NCBI GenBank assembly: GCA_021772055.1
Contig: JAETNR010000020.1
Coordinates: 1 to 64,000 of the forward strand
DNA length: 64,000 nucleotides
Source of the DNA: Blautia sp.
Lineage (GTDB): Bacteria > Bacillota > Clostridia > Lachnospirales > Lachnospiraceae
Direction of reading: 5' to 3'
Shown here: positions 12,228 to 38,400 of the stretch, in pieces
How the letters are laid out: the number at the start of each line of letters is the position of its first letter
Numbering within the stretch: the first letter of the stretch is position 1
Made by a program: the position numbers and the translations under genes
The notes under the pieces: model-generated
The model's database searches: none
Told to the model about the DNA's origin: nothing
What the model saw: the letters and a program-made list of their open reading frames with translations, nothing else

Positions 12228-12500
12228 TCAAAAAAGCCCCTCACACATACGTGTGAAGGGCGATCTATACCGCGGTACCACCTTCATTATGCAGAAACCT
12301 GCACATCTCATTTATCTTTAACGCAGATCTACGGGAAAGCCTACTTAAGCTATGACAAGCATCCGCACATTCAGCATTCCGGCTCCAAAGCTACCTTGGG
12401 CAATCTCTTCCTCAAAATGCCTTCCACCCGATGGACATCTCTCTCTGTCAGGGACAATTGCCTACTCCTCTTTTTCTCAGCCTTTTTTATAGGCTTTACT
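12228..12500 (-). ncRNA. T-box leader riboswitch for valS
   Basis: Minus strand has antiterminator AAGGTGGTACCGCGG, then a GC hairpin with T run (CCCTTCACACGTATGTGTGAGGGGCTTTTTT) just before valS. Confidence 0.93.
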
Positions 12501-29642: not shown

Positions 29643-29969
29643 GGAATCACTTCCTTTATTTATTGGTTTTATAGTATTATATGTTAGTGTAATATTATTT
29701 TGTTAGCGATATTATATACTGTATAGTATTATTTTGTCAATAGTATTTTGGGATAATGTTTTATGAATTATAATGGGGGAGGATGAGGACGCTGCCGATA
29801 CATAAAAGCATGGATGCCCGGGTGGGTAGAGGTAGCGGACTAGGGGAATTTAAAAAATAGTGGAAAATGGGTTTCTGTTTGTAGAGAAAAAAATGCAGAA
29901 CCGTTTGTTTTATATATTATGAATGATGACTCAGCAATATTTGATAATAACGCTGGAATGGAGGTTTTG

Positions 29970-31370
29970 ATGGAAAGAGAGTTAAAATTGCCGGAGGCAT
30001 TTCTGGATCGGATGAAAGAGATGCTTGGCGAGGAGTTTGGAGAGTTTATAGAAAGCTATGAAAAGCCCAGGACATATGGGCTGAGAGTGAATACTTTTAA
30101 GATTTCCTGTGAGGAGTTTGAAAAAATCGTGCCGTTTCCTGTGAAGAGGATTCCCTGGGTGGAGAATGGTTATTTTTATGGGGAGGACAGCCGCCCGGCA
30201 AGATGTCCTCTTTATCAGGCGGGGCTGTATTATCTGCAGGAGCCCAGTGCTATGACTCCTGCTTCCAGGCTGCCGGTGGAACCGGGAGATTATGTGCTGG
30301 ATCTCTGCGCTGCCCCCGGCGGAAAGGCTACGGCCCTTGGGGCCAAGCTTCGGGGACAGGGGCTTTTGGTGGCTAATGATATCAGTACCTCCAGAGCAAG
30401 AGCCCTGCTTCGAAACCTGGAGCTTTTCGGTATCTCCAATGTATTTGTAGCAAATGAAAAGCCTGCCAGGCTGGCCCAGGCATTTCCGGAATTCTTTCAT
30501 AAGATCGTTCTGGATGCTCCCTGCTCAGGGGAGGGAATGTTTCGAAAGGACGAGGCGCTTTCCAGAGACTGGACCCCGGAAAAATCCCAGGAGCTTGCGA
30601 AGGTACAGAGAGAGCTGCTTCTCCAGGCAGCGGACATGCTCCGCCCGGGAGGACTTCTTCTCTATTCCACCTGTACCTTCGCCCCCTGTGAGGACGAAGG
30701 CAGTGTCTCCTATCTCCTGGAACAGCGCCGGGATATGGAGCTTACGGACATGGAGGCTTACGAAAGCTTCTCACAGGGAAACCCTGCCTGGGGCAACGGC
30801 GATGCGAGTCTAAAAAAATGCATCCGCATCTTCCCTCACAAAATGAACGGAGAAGGCCACTTCCTGGCACTCTTCCAAAAGAAAGGCGCCACCCTCACCG
30901 AATCCCGGACCCTTCAGGGAAAACCCGACAAAAACACCCAAAAATGGCTCACGGAATTTTTCCACGAAATCGGCCTGAAAACCTTCCAGGGCTCCCCTTT
31001 CGACTGGACCCGTGTAGAAACGCGCGGAGAAAAAGTCTACTACCTCCCTCCGGTCCAGGCCAATTTCCGGGGCCTTAACTTCCTCCGCAACGGCCTCTAC
31101 CTCGGTGACCTCAAAAAGAACCGCTTTGAACCCAGCCATCCCTTCGCCCTGGCCCTCCACAAAGACGACATCGAAGCGGGAATCCCCCTCCCCCTCTCCG
31201 ATGACCGTCTCCCCCGCTACCTAAACGGCGAAACCCTCCAGATCACCCCCGAAGAAGCCCCCCACCCCAAAGGCTGGCACCTCCTCTGCCCCGAAACCTA
31301 CCCCCTCGGCTTCGGCAAACTGGTAAACCAAACCCTAAAAAACAAATACCCCGCCACCTGGCGCCCCTAA
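29970..31370 (+). CDS. RsmF/RsmB-type (NOL1/NOP2/Sun) 16S rRNA m5C methyltransferase
   Basis: DLCAAPGGKATALGAKL, LDAPCSGEGMFRKD, LLYSTCTFAPCEDEGSV; start placed at MERELKLPEAF instead of 29919. Confidence 0.93.
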   Translation: MERELKLPEAFLDRMKEMLGEEFGEFIESYEKPRTYGLRVNTFKISCEEFEKIVPFPVKRIPWVENGYFYGEDSRPARCPLYQAGLYYLQEPSAMTPASRLPVEPGDYVLDLCAAPGGKATALGAKLRGQGLLVANDISTSRARALLRNLELFGISNVFVANEKPARLAQAFPEFFHKIVLDAPCSGEGMFRKDEALSRDWTPEKSQELAKVQRELLLQAADMLRPGGLLLYSTCTFAPCEDEGSVSYLLEQRRDMELTDMEAYESFSQGNPAWGNGDASLKKCIRIFPHKMNGEGHFLALFQKKGATLTESRTLQGKPDKNTQKWLTEFFHEIGLKTFQGSPFDWTRVETRGEKVYYLPPVQANFRGLNFLRNGLYLGDLKKNRFEPSHPFALALHKDDIEAGIPLPLSDDRLPRYLNGETLQITPEEAPHPKGWHLLCPETYPLGFGKLVNQTLKNKYPATWRP

Positions 31371-31474
31371 CCCTATACTCCCGAAGCTTCCCCCTGCCAG
31401 CAAGCAGCCCACCACTTATCGCCCTACCGCCTTACCAGTTATCCCCCACACCCTACCGACCTTACCAACAACCA

Positions 31475-31742
31475 GCCGCCCCCGCCGCCGCCCCGTCCCG
31501 TTCTGCCGGAAGGCGTGCCTGTGCGTTTGGGGGCATTTGCAGGAGCCTTAGAAACAGTTAGGTCCCTGTACTTCTGCGTTATTCAAAAAAATTGTGCTGT
31601 CTGAGCGAAGCGAGTTCACAATTTTTTTGAATGCATTTAGCAGAAGCACAGGGACCTTACTGTTTCTTACGGCTCCGAAACCGCCCCCAAACACACAGGC
31701 ACGCCTTCCGGCAGAACGGGACGGGGCGGCGGCGGGGGCGGC
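31475..31742. repeat. Long near-perfect intergenic inverted repeat (~268 bp palindrome)
   Basis: Arms 31475-31596 and 31617-31742 with central ~20 nt tgtctgagcgaagcgagtt; outer ~58 bp (gccgcccccgccgccgccccgtcccgttctgccggaaggcgtgcctgtg-gtttgggggc) differ at one position. Confidence 0.93.
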
Positions 31743-31749
31743 GTCCCCC

Positions 31750-34700
31750 TCACACCCAAACCGCCTCATGCACCGCAAAGGAATAGATATAGGTCTCCCT
31801 CACCCTCTTCCCCAGCATCCTCTCCAGCGCCCCGGCGTATTCCTCCAGCTGCACCCTGTAAAGCTCCACCAGTTTTCCTTCTTCCCCTTTCCGGATCCTG
31901 TCCGTCTTATAATCCACCAGTATGATCTCCTCCCCTTCCAGAAAGTACGCATCAATGATCCCCTGCACCAGCACACGCTCGTCATCCGGCCATGTCTCAT
32001 TCAGCATGGAAGCCCCCACCGAAATTACAAAAGGCTGCTCCCGATACAGTTTTCCGGCAAGCGCCGCCTTCTGCATCCGCTTCCCAAGAGGGCACTCCAC
32101 AAACCGCAAAACATCCCCTGTATCAATACATGCCGCTTCCCCTGCCTCTATTTTCTGCTGCCGCAAAAGCCCTTCCACCTGTTCCCGAATCTCCTCCGCA
32201 GAAGCCACCCGGCCATAATCCAGGCATTCCATCACCCTGTGATAGGCAGTTCCCCTGGCAGCCCCCGTATACTCTTCCTCTGTCTCAGCCGCAAACCTTG
32301 GAACCAGCGGAGCAATATCCGGTTCGAAAAACAGGCTTTCCTCCCTGTCATACTCTCCCGCATAACTCCTCTTTTTCAGCTCCGAAACGCTGACTTTCAC
32401 AGGGATTATCTTCAGATACTCATAAGGATACCGATAGCTGAACCGCTCTTCTATCAGATTTCTTGTCTCTTCATCATAAACCTTCCCGGCATCCCAGCCC
32501 TTCAGATACTCCATGCGCATCTGACTCTCCGCCTCATGAACCACCTCTTCCCCCGCCAGGTCCAGAGCCGTGATCTTCCGCACCACAAACTCCGCTTCCT
32601 GTCCATCAAGCAGATGTCCCCTGCAGGGAGTAATCCCGTATTCCCGGTAAAGTCCATCCATACAGCGATGTCTTGCCAGCGCGGGAAGCACATAATCCCA
32701 GTAGGTTTTCGCCTTCATGCGGCTTCCCACACTCAGCAGCACCTCCTCCCTGTCCCGGCACCGGGAAAGGGCAGTCACCCGTTCTTCAAGCTTCCCCACA
32801 GTCCCGGTAAGCACCAGTTTCTCCTTTGCCCTGGTCAAAGCCACGTACAGCACACGCAGCTCTTCCCCCAGGCTCTCTTTCTGAAGTTCCCTGCGGATCA
32901 CCTGCTTAAATGCAGTGGGCACCACCATTCTCTGTTCCGGAAAAATGGCATCCGCCCCAAAACCCATTTCCGGATGAATCAAAAGTCTGGCATTCATATC
33001 ACGGAAATTAAACTGCTTTCCCATGCCTGCTGCAAAAACAATGGGAAACTCCAGACCCTTGCTTTTGTGGATCGTCATAATCTGAACAGAGGAAGCCCCG
33101 CTTCCTGACAAATTCACCTCTCCGAAATCCACCTCATATTTCTGTAAGCTCTCAATATAACGAATAAAATTAAACAGCCCCCGATAGCTGGTTTTCTCAT
33201 AATCCATGGCCTTTTCCACCAGCATCTGCAGATTGGCATTCCTCTGCTCCCCGCCGGGAAGTGCCCTGGCATAATCGCCGTAGCCCGTTGCTTTTAAAAC
33301 ATACAGGATCAGCTGGTGAATGGGCGTGTAGGCAGCCATGTCCCGGATCTCATCCAGTAATTCCAAAAATCCTCTTAATTTTGTCTTCAGCGCTTCTTTT
33401 CCCGCATCTGCCCAGAGTTCCATTTGGCCGTCTTCCACATAGGCACAGACACTGTCATAGAGCATTCCGCCCGGGCAGGAACAGCGGATCTCGGCCGCCT
33501 CCTGTGAGGTACAGTTCACAATCGGGGAGCGCAGCACTCCCATAAGAGGAATATCCTGCAGAGGATTGTCCGCAATGCGCAGAAAATTCAAAACCGTTAC
33601 CACCTCTAAAGCAGAAAAATAACCTGTTTTCGATGCCGTATAAGCAGGAATCCCCTGGGAAGCCAGCACTTCCACAAAGGTTTCCGCCCATCCGGAGGCT
33701 GTACGGAGCAAAATCGCAATATCACCGTATTCCACAGGCCTGTATTCCCCCGTCTCCCTGTCAAGGACACGCTCCTTTCCTGCCATCCTGCGGATTTCCT
33801 GAGCAATGGAAAACGCCTCCAGCTCCTGGGGGCTTTGCCCGGAATGTTCTTCCAGAAGCTCCTCCCCGTCTTTTTCAATGAGAAGCACTTCGGTTTTTAC
33901 AAAGTCTTCCTGATATCCCTCCGGAAATACAGCCCCGGGGTACAAAGCGGCCGCATCGTCATAGGAAATTCCTCCCAGATCCTCGCCCATGATCTGGCGG
34001 AAAATATAATTGACGCTTTGCAGCACTTCCCTGCGGCTTCGGAAATTTTTATGCAGGTCGATTCTCTGCTCCCGGCTGTCCGTAAGGGTATAGCTTTTGT
34101 ATTTTTCCATAAAAAGCTCCGGCCTTGCCAGGCGGAATCGGTAAATGCTTTGTTTCACATCCCCCACCATAAAAATATTTTTTCTGTCATTCACCCATCC
34201 GGAAACACAATTGGTAAGAAGCTCCTGTACCAGGTTGCTGTCCTGGTATTCATCCACCAGAACCTCCTCGTACTTCTCCGACAGCTCTCTGGCAGCCTGG
34301 GTCATGGTCACGGTATCTCCGTCCTTTTTCACCAGAATCTTCAGGGCAAAATGCTCCATATCCGTAAAATCCAGCACATTCTTTTCCCGCTTTTTTTCTC
34401 CAAACCGCTCTTGAAAGGCACGAGTCAGCTCCACCAGAGTTTCCATGGATTCCCCGCAGTTCGTAAGAAGCGCAGACAGCGTCTCCTCCCTGCAGGAAAA
34501 ATAACGTTCCGAAAGCTTTTTCCATGCCTCCTTTACTTCCTTTCGAAGATCCTGCACCTGTTTTTTCAGGCTTTCCTCCACATCCTGTGTCTTTTTTCTG
34601 GAAAAGGGTACAAACACAGCCTGATTCAGACACGCAAAAGTGCCATCATAGTCCTCCTGGTCTGCCAGCTGCCTTAATTTTCCAATGAGAAGAAGATCCT

Positions 34701-35448
34701 GATTCAACGCTTCCTCATAGAGATAGGGGCCTCTTTCTGCCAGGCAGATGGACTTTGCCTCCTCCACCAGGTTCTGCATACTATCCAGCTCTTCCCTGCA
34801 TGTCTCCCAGAGCAGCTTCATCCATTTTGCATCTTTTACAGGCTCCTCCCCTCCGTAGCATTTGAGACATTCCGCAAGCCATTCCTCAGGATAGGGATGG
34901 CTCATGGCAGCCTGATAAACTTCCCAGATCAGCTCCTTGATGCCATCGTCCGTTTTGCCGGAAGCATAGCATTCCACAAAATCCACAAACCTTTTGCAGT
35001 CCTCTTCTCCATACTTTTCTTCCAGAAGTTCTTTCAGCACATCCTCACGAAGCAGCTTCAGTTCCCCCTCATCCGCAGTGCGGTAACCGGGATCCAGGCC
35101 GATAAGATGAAAATAATTTCGGATCACATAGGCGCAGAAACCGTCAATGGTGGTGATCTGTGCCGTATGGATCAGCGTCATCTGCTTCTGCAGATGGTCA
35201 TTATCCGGGTTTTCGTACAGAGCCTGCTCCAGTGCTCTGGAAATACGTTCCCGCATCTCCCCTGCTGCAGCCCTTGTAAAGGTCATGATCAGCATCCTGT
35301 CAATATCTATCGGATGGGTACTGTCCATAATCCTGCCTAAAATACGCTGTACCAGAACCGCCGTCTTACCGGAACCTGCTGCAGCGCTTACCAGAATATT
35401 CCGATCCCTCAAAGAAATAACCTTCTGCTGTTCTTCCGTCCATTTCAT
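31750..35448 (-). CDS. addA: ATP-dependent helicase/nuclease subunit A
   Basis: UvrD-like NILVSAAAGSGKTAVLVQRI, VLVDEYQDSNLVQ, C-terminal nuclease motif ILVDYKTDRI; start placed at MKWTEEQQ. Confidence 0.96.
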   Translation of the reverse strand: MKWTEEQQKVISLRDRNILVSAAAGSGKTAVLVQRILGRIMDSTHPIDIDRMLIMTFTRAAAGEMRERISRALEQALYENPDNDHLQKQMTLIHTAQITTIDGFCAYVIRNYFHLIGLDPGYRTADEGELKLLREDVLKELLEEKYGEEDCKRFVDFVECYASGKTDDGIKELIWEVYQAAMSHPYPEEWLAECLKCYGGEEPVKDAKWMKLLWETCREELDSMQNLVEEAKSICLAERGPYLYEEALNQDLLLIGKLRQLADQEDYDGTFACLNQAVFVPFSRKKTQDVEESLKKQVQDLRKEVKEAWKKLSERYFSCREETLSALLTNCGESMETLVELTRAFQERFGEKKREKNVLDFTDMEHFALKILVKKDGDTVTMTQAARELSEKYEEVLVDEYQDSNLVQELLTNCVSGWVNDRKNIFMVGDVKQSIYRFRLARPELFMEKYKSYTLTDSREQRIDLHKNFRSRREVLQSVNYIFRQIMGEDLGGISYDDAAALYPGAVFPEGYQEDFVKTEVLLIEKDGEELLEEHSGQSPQELEAFSIAQEIRRMAGKERVLDRETGEYRPVEYGDIAILLRTASGWAETFVEVLASQGIPAYTASKTGYFSALEVVTVLNFLRIADNPLQDIPLMGVLRSPIVNCTSQEAAEIRCSCPGGMLYDSVCAYVEDGQMELWADAGKEALKTKLRGFLELLDEIRDMAAYTPIHQLILYVLKATGYGDYARALPGGEQRNANLQMLVEKAMDYEKTSYRGLFNFIRYIESLQKYEVDFGEVNLSGSGASSVQIMTIHKSKGLEFPIVFAAGMGKQFNFRDMNARLLIHPEMGFGADAIFPEQRMVVPTAFKQVIRRELQKESLGEELRVLYVALTRAKEKLVLTGTVGKLEERVTALSRCRDREEVLLSVGSRMKAKTYWDYVLPALARHRCMDGLYREYGITPCRGHLLDGQEAEFVVRKITALDLAGEEVVHEAESQMRMEYLKGWDAGKVYDEETRNLIEERFSYRYPYEYLKIIPVKVSVSELKKRSYAGEYDREESLFFEPDIAPLVPRFAAETEEEYTGAARGTAYHRVMECLDYGRVASAEEIREQVEGLLRQQKIEAGEAACIDTGDVLRFVECPLGKRMQKAALAGKLYREQPFVISVGASMLNETWPDDERVLVQGIIDAYFLEGEEIILVDYKTDRIRKGEEGKLVELYRVQLEEYAGALERMLGKRVRETYIYSFAVHEAVWV

Positions 35449-35449
35449 C

Positions 35450-38400
35450 TCACTGCACCTCCTCTGCAAAAGCTTTCCAGAGATCTTCATCGGAAAATTT
35501 CTTTAATCTCCGGAAATCATAGCCCGGCATCTTTTTATCAAAACCGCATACATTCTGATAAGGACAGTAGGTGCAGGCATTTTTCTTGTCCAGTTCATAA
35601 GGCGCGATCTCCGCCTCCCCTTCCATAATGGAACTCCGGATTCCCGCAATCTTTTTCTTTACATAGCGGTTCAGAATATCAAACTGCTCCCTGCTTGCCA
35701 CGGAAGCGTTTTTTCGGAAGCTTCCGTCCTTATTCAAAGTCACCGGAAGAGAAGAAAGGGTTCTGTCCATTTTTTCTGCCACCTCTCTGTCTGCCTGGGC
35801 AAGTCCGTTCATTTTTAATTCCTTCAGAATCTCTCCGGTTACTTTTTCCACATCCGCCTCCATGTTTTCCTGAATCATGGGGTCTTTTACATTGTAATAA
35901 AAGATTCCCGCAGGCTGTACCTCCTTCTTCGGATGTTTCTTCTTCTCCACCTGCACAGCCCCGTCCAGATAGATCATCAGCTGAAGCTGCAGTCCGTGAT
36001 ACAAAGCCAGCAGATCAAAGGAGGTGTTTCCTGTTTTATAGTCGATTACCTTCACAAGAACACGGTTCTCCTCTTCCAGTACATCCACGCGATCGATCCG
36101 TCCTCCTCCGAAGGCCACCTCAAACCCCTCCGGCTGAAATTCCCCCTGTTTCAGCTGTTCCTGCAAAGCCCAGACAGTTCTTTTTAAAATCCTTCTGGTT
36201 CGCCGGATCATGTACTGGTTGCGGGCATTGCTCTGGAGTATGGTGTTTCCATAGTCAAGGGCGATCCGGTCCAGACATATATCTGCAATGCGATCCCGGT
36301 CCTCATCCCCCAGGCTTTTCCATTCCAGACCGTTTTTTTGGACTTCTGCAGCAAAATCCTCCAGGGAACGGTGGATAATATTTCCCATGTCCATGGCGCG
36401 GAATTCGTACTCCGCCCGTTCCGTAAGCTTAAGCCCGTAACGAAGAAAATGGGCAAAGGCACAGGCGGAAAATCGCTCCAGCCTTGTAGCACTGTAAGGG
36501 GAAACTTCCCCGTACAGAACTTTTGCCACGCTTTTGCTGATACAGTCCACAGGCTTTTTAAAGAAGGCGGCATCCACCAGTCTGCGGACCACAGGCCCAT
36601 ATTCCGGACTTCTGAGATACCAGCTATAAAGCTCCTGAAATACAGGGTCTTCCTTTTTTCCCTCTGTCAGTCCTTCCAGAAAATAATCCAGGCTGGTTCC
36701 CGGAGTTTCCAGTTGAGCAAGGGGCTGGTTCTGTTCCTCCGCCTGCTCCACCACAAGGCCCGGGTACAGATTTTGCAGAGAACCGATAAGATACGCCGGA
36801 CCTGCCGCCTCCCCCTTGGCGTTGGAGCGGCTGTAGGAAAGGCACAGGTGTTCCCTGGGCTTTGTGAGATTCAGGTAAAGATAAAAACGCTGAATGTTCA
36901 TCTGCTCTTTCGGGCTTGGGGCAAGCTCTATCTCCTGCTCTTTAAAAAAGTCCCGGTCCATCTCTGTAAGAATGCCCCCTGCATCTGCCTTCTTTGGGAT
37001 ACTGCCTTCATTCACGCCAATGAAAAACAGGGCTTTGATATCCTTTAACCTGGTTCTTTCCATATCTCCGATCAGAATCTGATCCATACTGGGGGGAATC
37101 AGAGCCACCTTGGCTTCTGCAAGTCCCGTTTCCAGAAGCTGCTGAAATTCCAGACGGCTGACGTTTTCCTCCCCAAGGATCTCCACCATTTTATCCAGTA
37201 GATTCATAATGATCCCGTAGATCTGCGCATATTCCTTTTCCATGGCTTTATCCCCTGCCCTTGCAAAAAGCAGCTCCCGCTCCTTCAGTTTTTCCTGAAT
37301 ACGGCTTTTTACAATGAATTCATAAAGGCAGCGGCAGTATTCCCGGATGGTCTTTTTTCCTCCGGAAAAGCCTTCTTTCAAAATCTGCACTTCCCCGACA
37401 AAGCGCTCCCGTATCTCATTGATCTCCTGGATGGCTTCCGGCGCCATTCCCTGATAAATCCTCACCCATTTTTCCGACCACCTGCGGTACCCGCGGATAC
37501 CCAGAGCAATCACATAATTCTCCAGCCTGTCTGTTTCTTCCCTGCGGATATCGGACATGCCGCAGCGGAGATAGCGGAATACACTTTCATACGGAAAGCC
37601 TTTCACCACCATTTCCAGGGCGGCACGAAGATATTCCACAAAAGGATTCATAAGAACCGTATGCTTCTCGTCGAGGAAATAAGGAATTCCCGCCTCCTTC
37701 AAAACCTGCCCGGCAATCCCTGCATATTCCTCCAGATTTCCGGTAATCATCGCAATTTCCCCGTAACGGTATCCCCTCTCCCGCACAAGCCTGGAAATGC
37801 GTCTGGCAGTCTCCTCCATTTCCTTTAAGGGGCTTTTGGCAGAAAAAATGCGGATTTCCTGCTGCTCTTTTTCATAAACTGCTCTGCGGTAACGGAACAG
37901 ATGCTGTTCCATAAACCCCAATGCAGGAGACTTCGAAAAGCGGGAATGTTCTCCTCTTTGGATCAGAATAGGCTCCTCTACGTCCTTTGTCAGTCCTGCA
38001 AGGGTATGAATCATTTTTCTGCTCATATAAAAAAGCTGGTGGGGTTTTCCTATGGCAAAAGGATTTTCCCGTTCATCCAAAGTGACGGTTACGTAAATCT
38101 TCCGACAGATCGCTAGAAGCTCCCGGAGCACTTTATTCTGGATCGGGGTAAAACCTGTAAAACCATCCAGAAGGAGAACGCTGCCCTTCATTTTCTCTGA
38201 CAGGGAAAGAACGTTCAGCAGCACATCCAGAACCTCCTCACCGGTCATGTAATGTCCTTCCAGATAACTTAAGAATGCCTGGTAAAGAGTACCCACATCC
38301 TTCAGCTTCATTTGGAGGAGCTTTTTATCCCGGGCTTTCTCCAGCATCTGATCCAGTGCCTCTTCCCGGACATCATACTGCATAAATTCTGAAATCAGGG

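Follow-up and report, generated by a model that had tools for sequence, protein, structure and literature searches.

What is a near-perfect palindrome of 268 nt doing between two convergent genes of a Blautia genome? It lies in a window of 64,000 nucleotides (the whole stretch of DNA that was analysed), from which an earlier note had picked it out, listing as candidates a non-autonomous mobile palindrome (MITE/REP-like), a structured RNA, and a recombination or replication feature.

The palindrome and its setting

The earlier note had placed the palindrome exactly, at 31475-31742 between convergent rsmF-like and addA genes, and DNA folding predicts one hairpin for all 268 nt, which we orient by its core (Table 1). 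The 103-nt arms (31475-31577 and 31640-31742) are 88% complementary, and the inner 16-bp arm (31581-31596 and 31617-31632) is fully (100%) so. The outer 58 bp do carry the single mismatch described for them (57/58 complementary, 31475-31532 against 31685-31742). Taken as 31471-31746, the DNA fold reaches -141 kcal/mol, compared with -48.8 +/- 4.4 in dinucleotide shuffles (z = -21). The apical motif, CTGTCTGAGCGAAGCGAGTT, has a single match in the window, at the hairpin tip. To the right, the flank reaches the addA stop codon (31750-31752), and what comes after the outer stem is GTCCCCCTCA (GTCCCCC), not the T-run that, after a GC hairpin, marks an intrinsic terminator.

Table 1. Features of the hairpin locus, in window positions.
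Feature	Position	Strand	Remark
Whole hairpin element	31475..31742	+	268 nt
Conserved core	31533..31684	+	common to all genomic copies
Apical motif	31597..31616	+	hairpin tip; found across phyla
Left outer arm	31475..31532	+	copy-specific, G/C-rich; 57/58 complementary
Right outer arm	31685..31742	+	copy-specific
Left internal-loop sequence ATTTGCA	31535..31541	+	conserved, unpaired against GAAACC (copy alignment)
Right internal-loop sequence GAAACC	31677..31682	+	conserved (copy alignment)
3' internal-loop sequence GCATTTA	31633..31639	+	conserved, ahead of GCAGAA, opposite GTT 31578-31580 (copy alignment)
Left end tag ACCA	31471..31474	+	NCA in tagged copies; short unpaired flank
Right end tag GTCC	31743..31746	+	short unpaired flank immediately past hairpin base
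rsmF-like RNA methyltransferase gene	29919..31370	+	left neighbour, convergent; name from earlier note
addA-like helicase-nuclease gene	31750..35490	-	right neighbour, convergent; name from earlier note

Left of the hairpin lies a C-rich, G-poor stretch (31375-31474; 48% C and 7% G in its final 60 nt), and the flanks of several other copies are likewise C-rich and G-poor; such flanks may reflect a target preference or a rut-like region. Orthologues of the rsmF-like protein adjoin addA elsewhere (tblastn). A T-box leader at 12253-12487 (-) is the sole Rfam match within the window. Neither the element nor 18 loci of other taxa matched Rfam above the gathering score, and a permissive threshold returned eukaryotic miRNA matches alone, far below gathering.

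Copies, core and arms in the same genome

The palindrome is far from alone. BLAST with the element, the copy-number check that the earlier note had proposed, found approximately 26 other places in its own genome, with 69-100% identity in the aligned portion; most matches span query positions 59-210 only, and therefore the shared part is a core of approximately 154 nt (31533-31684), with largely unique outer arms. A covariance model built from 23 copies and run on the same genome recovered 26 copies in both orientations, plus one truncated by a contig end, the other rows being weaker antisense matches at the same places, as expected for a palindrome. Elements range in length from 214 to 329 nt. 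Specifically, all copies share two asymmetric unpaired regions (ATTTGCA facing GAAACC, and GTT facing GCNTTTA) and the apical motif CTGTCTGAGC-(mini-hairpin, short stem)-GCGAGTT. Hence, the inner stem that had been read as diverged exists, but every copy conserves it as a core whose internal loops are fixed.

Pairing in the core is strongly supported by covariation. Standard pairs fill 97.5% of the cells of the core alignment, and double compensatory changes occur in 30 of 59 pairs, compared with 11.7 in shuffles and 6-13 when the partner strand is slid; none of 500 shuffles attained the observed covariation, and sliding abolished it. Unpaired core columns are conserved equally to paired ones (0.90 and 0.91, respectively), on which basis we argue that the loops are recognised. 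Both further copies and compensatory changes, whose joint absence was to have marked the palindrome as a one-off, are thus present, and the feature survives.

The outer arms follow a different rule. They extend approximately 28-82 bp and are specific to each copy yet self-complementary: their first 40 nt average 94.5% complementarity within a copy, compared with 60% identity between copies. The 58-bp GC-rich arms beside addA, for which the earlier note had no explanation, can now be placed as the copy-specific part of the element. In approximately half of the own-genome copies, CA precedes the hairpin base and GTCC directly follows it, at any arm length (44-82 bp beyond the core); these end tags are absent from the other half or so, and are found again in the genomes G262, G004 and G256. 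In a subfamily in G004 and G256 (L311, L314, L320, L323, L326 and L329), the flanks carry near-tandem repeats of approximately 45 bp (CTGTATTCTTCGGTACTTATAGTGGTACGCTGTGCCGATCTGGTT).

With simple ORF calling, 12 of 23 intervals holding copies fall between divergent genes, nine between co-directional and two between convergent ones; with about half divergent, many copies probably lie outside a neighbour's transcript. The nearness to AddAB, which had been flagged as perhaps coincidental, does look so, given that the remaining copies are located elsewhere.

Turnover at orthologous sites

Comparison of orthologous rsmF-addA spacers, another check suggested at the outset, drew on 29 same-genus loci fetched with the AddA C-terminus, of which 23 were readable as far as rsmF, while rearrangement, insufficient length or misreading removed six. 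The element was absent from all 23 readable spacers, which were short or held unrelated sequence. Elsewhere, a relative has an ordinary intrinsic terminator at two sites where G004 has a hairpin, one G004 site retains a left-arm remnant alone where G256 has an intact hairpin, and at one G256 site the apex alone has been deleted. Hairpin sites come and go, with losses visible; a clean empty site bearing a target duplication was not among the four orthologous sites compared between close species. When copies were matched between such species, five pairs were double-changed from Watson-Crick to Watson-Crick and 22 were changed on one side, and the excess of one-sided changes indicates that arm homogenisation or repair is not instantaneous. 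In two same-genus genomes (L247, L256), the neighbour of addA, read by eye, resembles an Rpn/PD-(D/E)XK nuclease-type protein.

Distribution and paired arrangement

Across the genus (Blautia in the broad sense, with G004 being Blautia massiliensis; L124, identical coordinates), the exact motif, sought as the pattern CTGTCTGAGCN{2,14}GCGAGTT, is carried by 28 of 64 genomes, the richest of which has 23 copies. Among 398 genomes sampled across the phylum, it occurs in 12, a patchy distribution, and the control, the reversed pattern, gave zero in both sets. The matching architecture recurs in few-contig genomes (G001, G004, G028 and G256). Scanning the collection with a lengthened motif gave at least 118 stretches in named taxa, and the taxa among the matches listed include Lachnospiraceae, Bacteroidota, Pseudomonadota (Zoogloea, Variovorax, Acidithiobacillus), Desulfobacterota and others. 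At 69% of the 118 listed named-taxon loci, at least 9 of 14 positions beside the motif form Watson-Crick pairs, compared with 2.3% for shuffled partners, and therefore most of these loci are true hairpins; some of the remainder will be chance matches, and single matches in rare phyla are weak. Plasmid records held no motif match, phage records one (unannotated, phage-like) and viral contigs three.

Every inverted pair of hairpins seen within approximately 550 bp, whatever the phylum, faced outward (-,+), and none faced inward; in addition, there were one pair in the same direction and one tandem array. In the own genome, only one close inverted pair was noticed (contig C133). Inverted doublets such as REPINs are arranged in this way, which points to a two-hairpin unit in many taxa. 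A single long outward pair was found (L161, 1.47 kb), and the gene inside it reads as an ordinary host gene. Outward pairs in Betaproteobacteria (L093, L111, L140 and L141, from Zoogloea, Variovorax and relatives) are bounded by inverted repeats of the GGTCGCCTTTCTTTG...CAAAGAAAG type, and a Bacteroidota pair (L095) by CCTTGA...CTTTTGG...CCAAAAG.

As for a partner enzyme, a Y1/RAYT transposase could be rejected, being neither co-distributed with the hairpins nor adjacent to them: G028 has 22 motif copies and zero Y1_Tnp genes, the own genome has two Y1 matches, of which the intact one sits within an IS200/IS605-like unit, and 32 scanned Y1 loci had the motif nearby at one site (listed twice). 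The Rpn nuclease family was likewise set aside, as it does not track copy number. Among the 118 listed named-taxon loci, no neighbour gene was convincingly common to all, and none resembled an autonomous parent.

Discussion

Our results suggest that the hairpin beside addA is probably one of a set of non-autonomous, dispersed DNA repeats of a REPIN/MITE-like kind, with template switching at the hairpin preserving the match between the arms. Among the candidates first listed, the list being upheld in part, the mobile palindrome fits best: the approximately 26 dispersed copies, the patchy taxa, the 23 orthologous spacers without the element and the turnover of sites all speak for it. Against it count the failure to find a clean empty site with a target duplication or a linked or co-distributed enzyme, the excess of one-sided arm changes, and the lack of end tags in approximately half of the own-genome copies. 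In the mechanism that we propose, a protein would recognise the conserved core loops and the universal apical motif, presumably on single-stranded or cruciform DNA, and this recognition would preserve the unpaired loops while the element spreads as a non-autonomous unit. Replication stalling at the hairpin would lead to intrastrand template switching, by which the arms would stay complementary; in E. coli, template switching perfects quasipalindromes (PMC7202029). Complementarity in the diverged outer arms is most simply accounted for in this way, and selection for pairing could contribute to it too. Between the convergent rsmF and addA genes, the hairpin probably also serves as a passive transcriptional barrier.

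A bolder version, which we hold to be doubtful, is that the motif CTGTCTGAGC-(stem)-GCGAGTT marks an undescribed class of DNA hairpins, present in four or more bacterial phyla, whose movement or copying goes through a fold-back single-strand intermediate and a putative non-Y1 enzyme. A fold-back step of this kind would account for the outer arms, which in every copy are distinctive and closely matched to each other.

Could the hairpin instead work as RNA, either as a structured non-coding RNA or as a 3'-UTR element, in which a transcribed hairpin binds protein through its loops and compensatory selection keeps its stems? The strong covariation and the invariant loops suit this reading, as do two copies at sites where relatives carry terminators downstream of genes. 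A function on one RNA strand would, we assumed, give a clear excess of G.U over A.C pairs, as eight tRNAs do (7 and 0). Under the RNAalifold structure, the core does have 50 G.U and 19 A.C pairs, a count biased by a structure that favours G.U; isolated non-Watson-Crick pairs, however, are near parity in the genus (G.U 77, A.C 61) and show no more than a modest skew elsewhere (134 and 94 in other taxa). Since the G.U excess is unclear and divergent genes flank approximately half of the copies, we lean, though not decisively, toward a structure at the DNA level. With no Rfam match, and with copy-specific arms of 50-80 bp that would be unusual in RNA families, the structured RNA of the original list retains the covariation in its favour and is a lesser, somewhat improbable possibility.

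A bidirectional terminator or supercoil/cruciform element that host selection maintains, and that recombination and not transposition has multiplied, appears quite unlikely. It gains from the intrinsic terminators found at two orthologous sites where a relative has the hairpin, and from the many copies between divergent genes, where negative supercoiling would be expected to gather; however, the outer stem here runs into GTCCCCC without a T-run, neither a terminator nor a cruciform needs loops that are conserved or a tip motif common to several phyla, and the distribution is patchy. That the palindrome is an assembly artefact or a one-off inverted duplication might have been suspected of a host assembly that is a 192-contig draft with 5.6% contamination, and of a family at whose hairpins many contigs of the draft G262 end. 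Yet 26 copies carry compensatory changes, and the identical architecture in the few-contig genomes G001, G004, G028 and G256 rules an artefact out, leaving this explanation with next to no probability.

The preferred reading, a mobile DNA repeat, invites comparison with described families. Like REPs and REPINs (the GTAG REPs, moved by the RAYT Y1 transposase), the hairpins are dispersed extragenic palindromes that are non-autonomous and patchy, occur in inverted pairs and carry an unpaired end tag. Unlike the GTAG families, they measure 214-329 nt in the own genome rather than 20-40 nt, end in NCA and GTCC rather than in a GTAG foot, have copy-specific arms, and were not seen with any RAYT-type gene, whereas a cognate RAYT is flanked by its repeat. 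The closest described group is the CGTC-tagged REPs, a super-family with stems of 8-9 bp, A-T pairs at the base and loops of 4-5 nt, for which a dedicated transposase is not known and Clostridia are not mentioned (Di Nocera 2013, PMC3733652). Our hairpins resemble these in their C/GTC end (the slash marking the hairpin base) and in the CCA-like tail opposite, a likeness that holds for approximately half of the own-genome copies (NCA/...C/GTCC) and also in G262, G004 and G256; however, our element has a stem approximately ten times longer, a conserved structured apical motif and, in most tagged copies, G-C rather than A-T at the base. The TIR repeats of TIRYT transposases (PMC3733652, PMC6006769) are also long inverted repeats, some self-complementary and moderately abundant, but no TIRYT gene was found flanked by hairpins, and the GGGGWSAS motif does not match exactly. 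MITEs are similarly short, non-coding, intergenic and built on inverted repeats, whereas here a single hairpin, its unpaired loops conserved, makes up the entire element, and neither a target duplication nor a parent transposon was found. The literature searched, with incomplete coverage, held no earlier description of the motif or of Lachnospiraceae palindromes. Given the short stems and loops of the CGTC-tagged REPs, together with the absence of an Rfam or literature match, we file the hairpins as being of the REP/REPIN/MITE kind, yet as members of none of those families.

If confirmed, this would be a large, apparently unnamed family of bacterial DNA hairpins, marked by one conserved tip motif in several phyla, in which case a conserved recognising protein should exist. 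Because its core loops stay fixed though unpaired, while its matching arms vary from copy to copy, the family lends itself to tests of hairpin template switching and of hairpin-based mobility without a Y1 transposase. There is also a caution for annotation, in that hairpin repeats produce spurious open reading frames. An ORF of 504 aa (31594-33108, +) begins in the tip of the window's hairpin and runs antisense to addA; it is most likely spurious. Finally, many contigs of G262 (L293-L309) end inside or beside a hairpin copy, and the family therefore appears to break draft assemblies.
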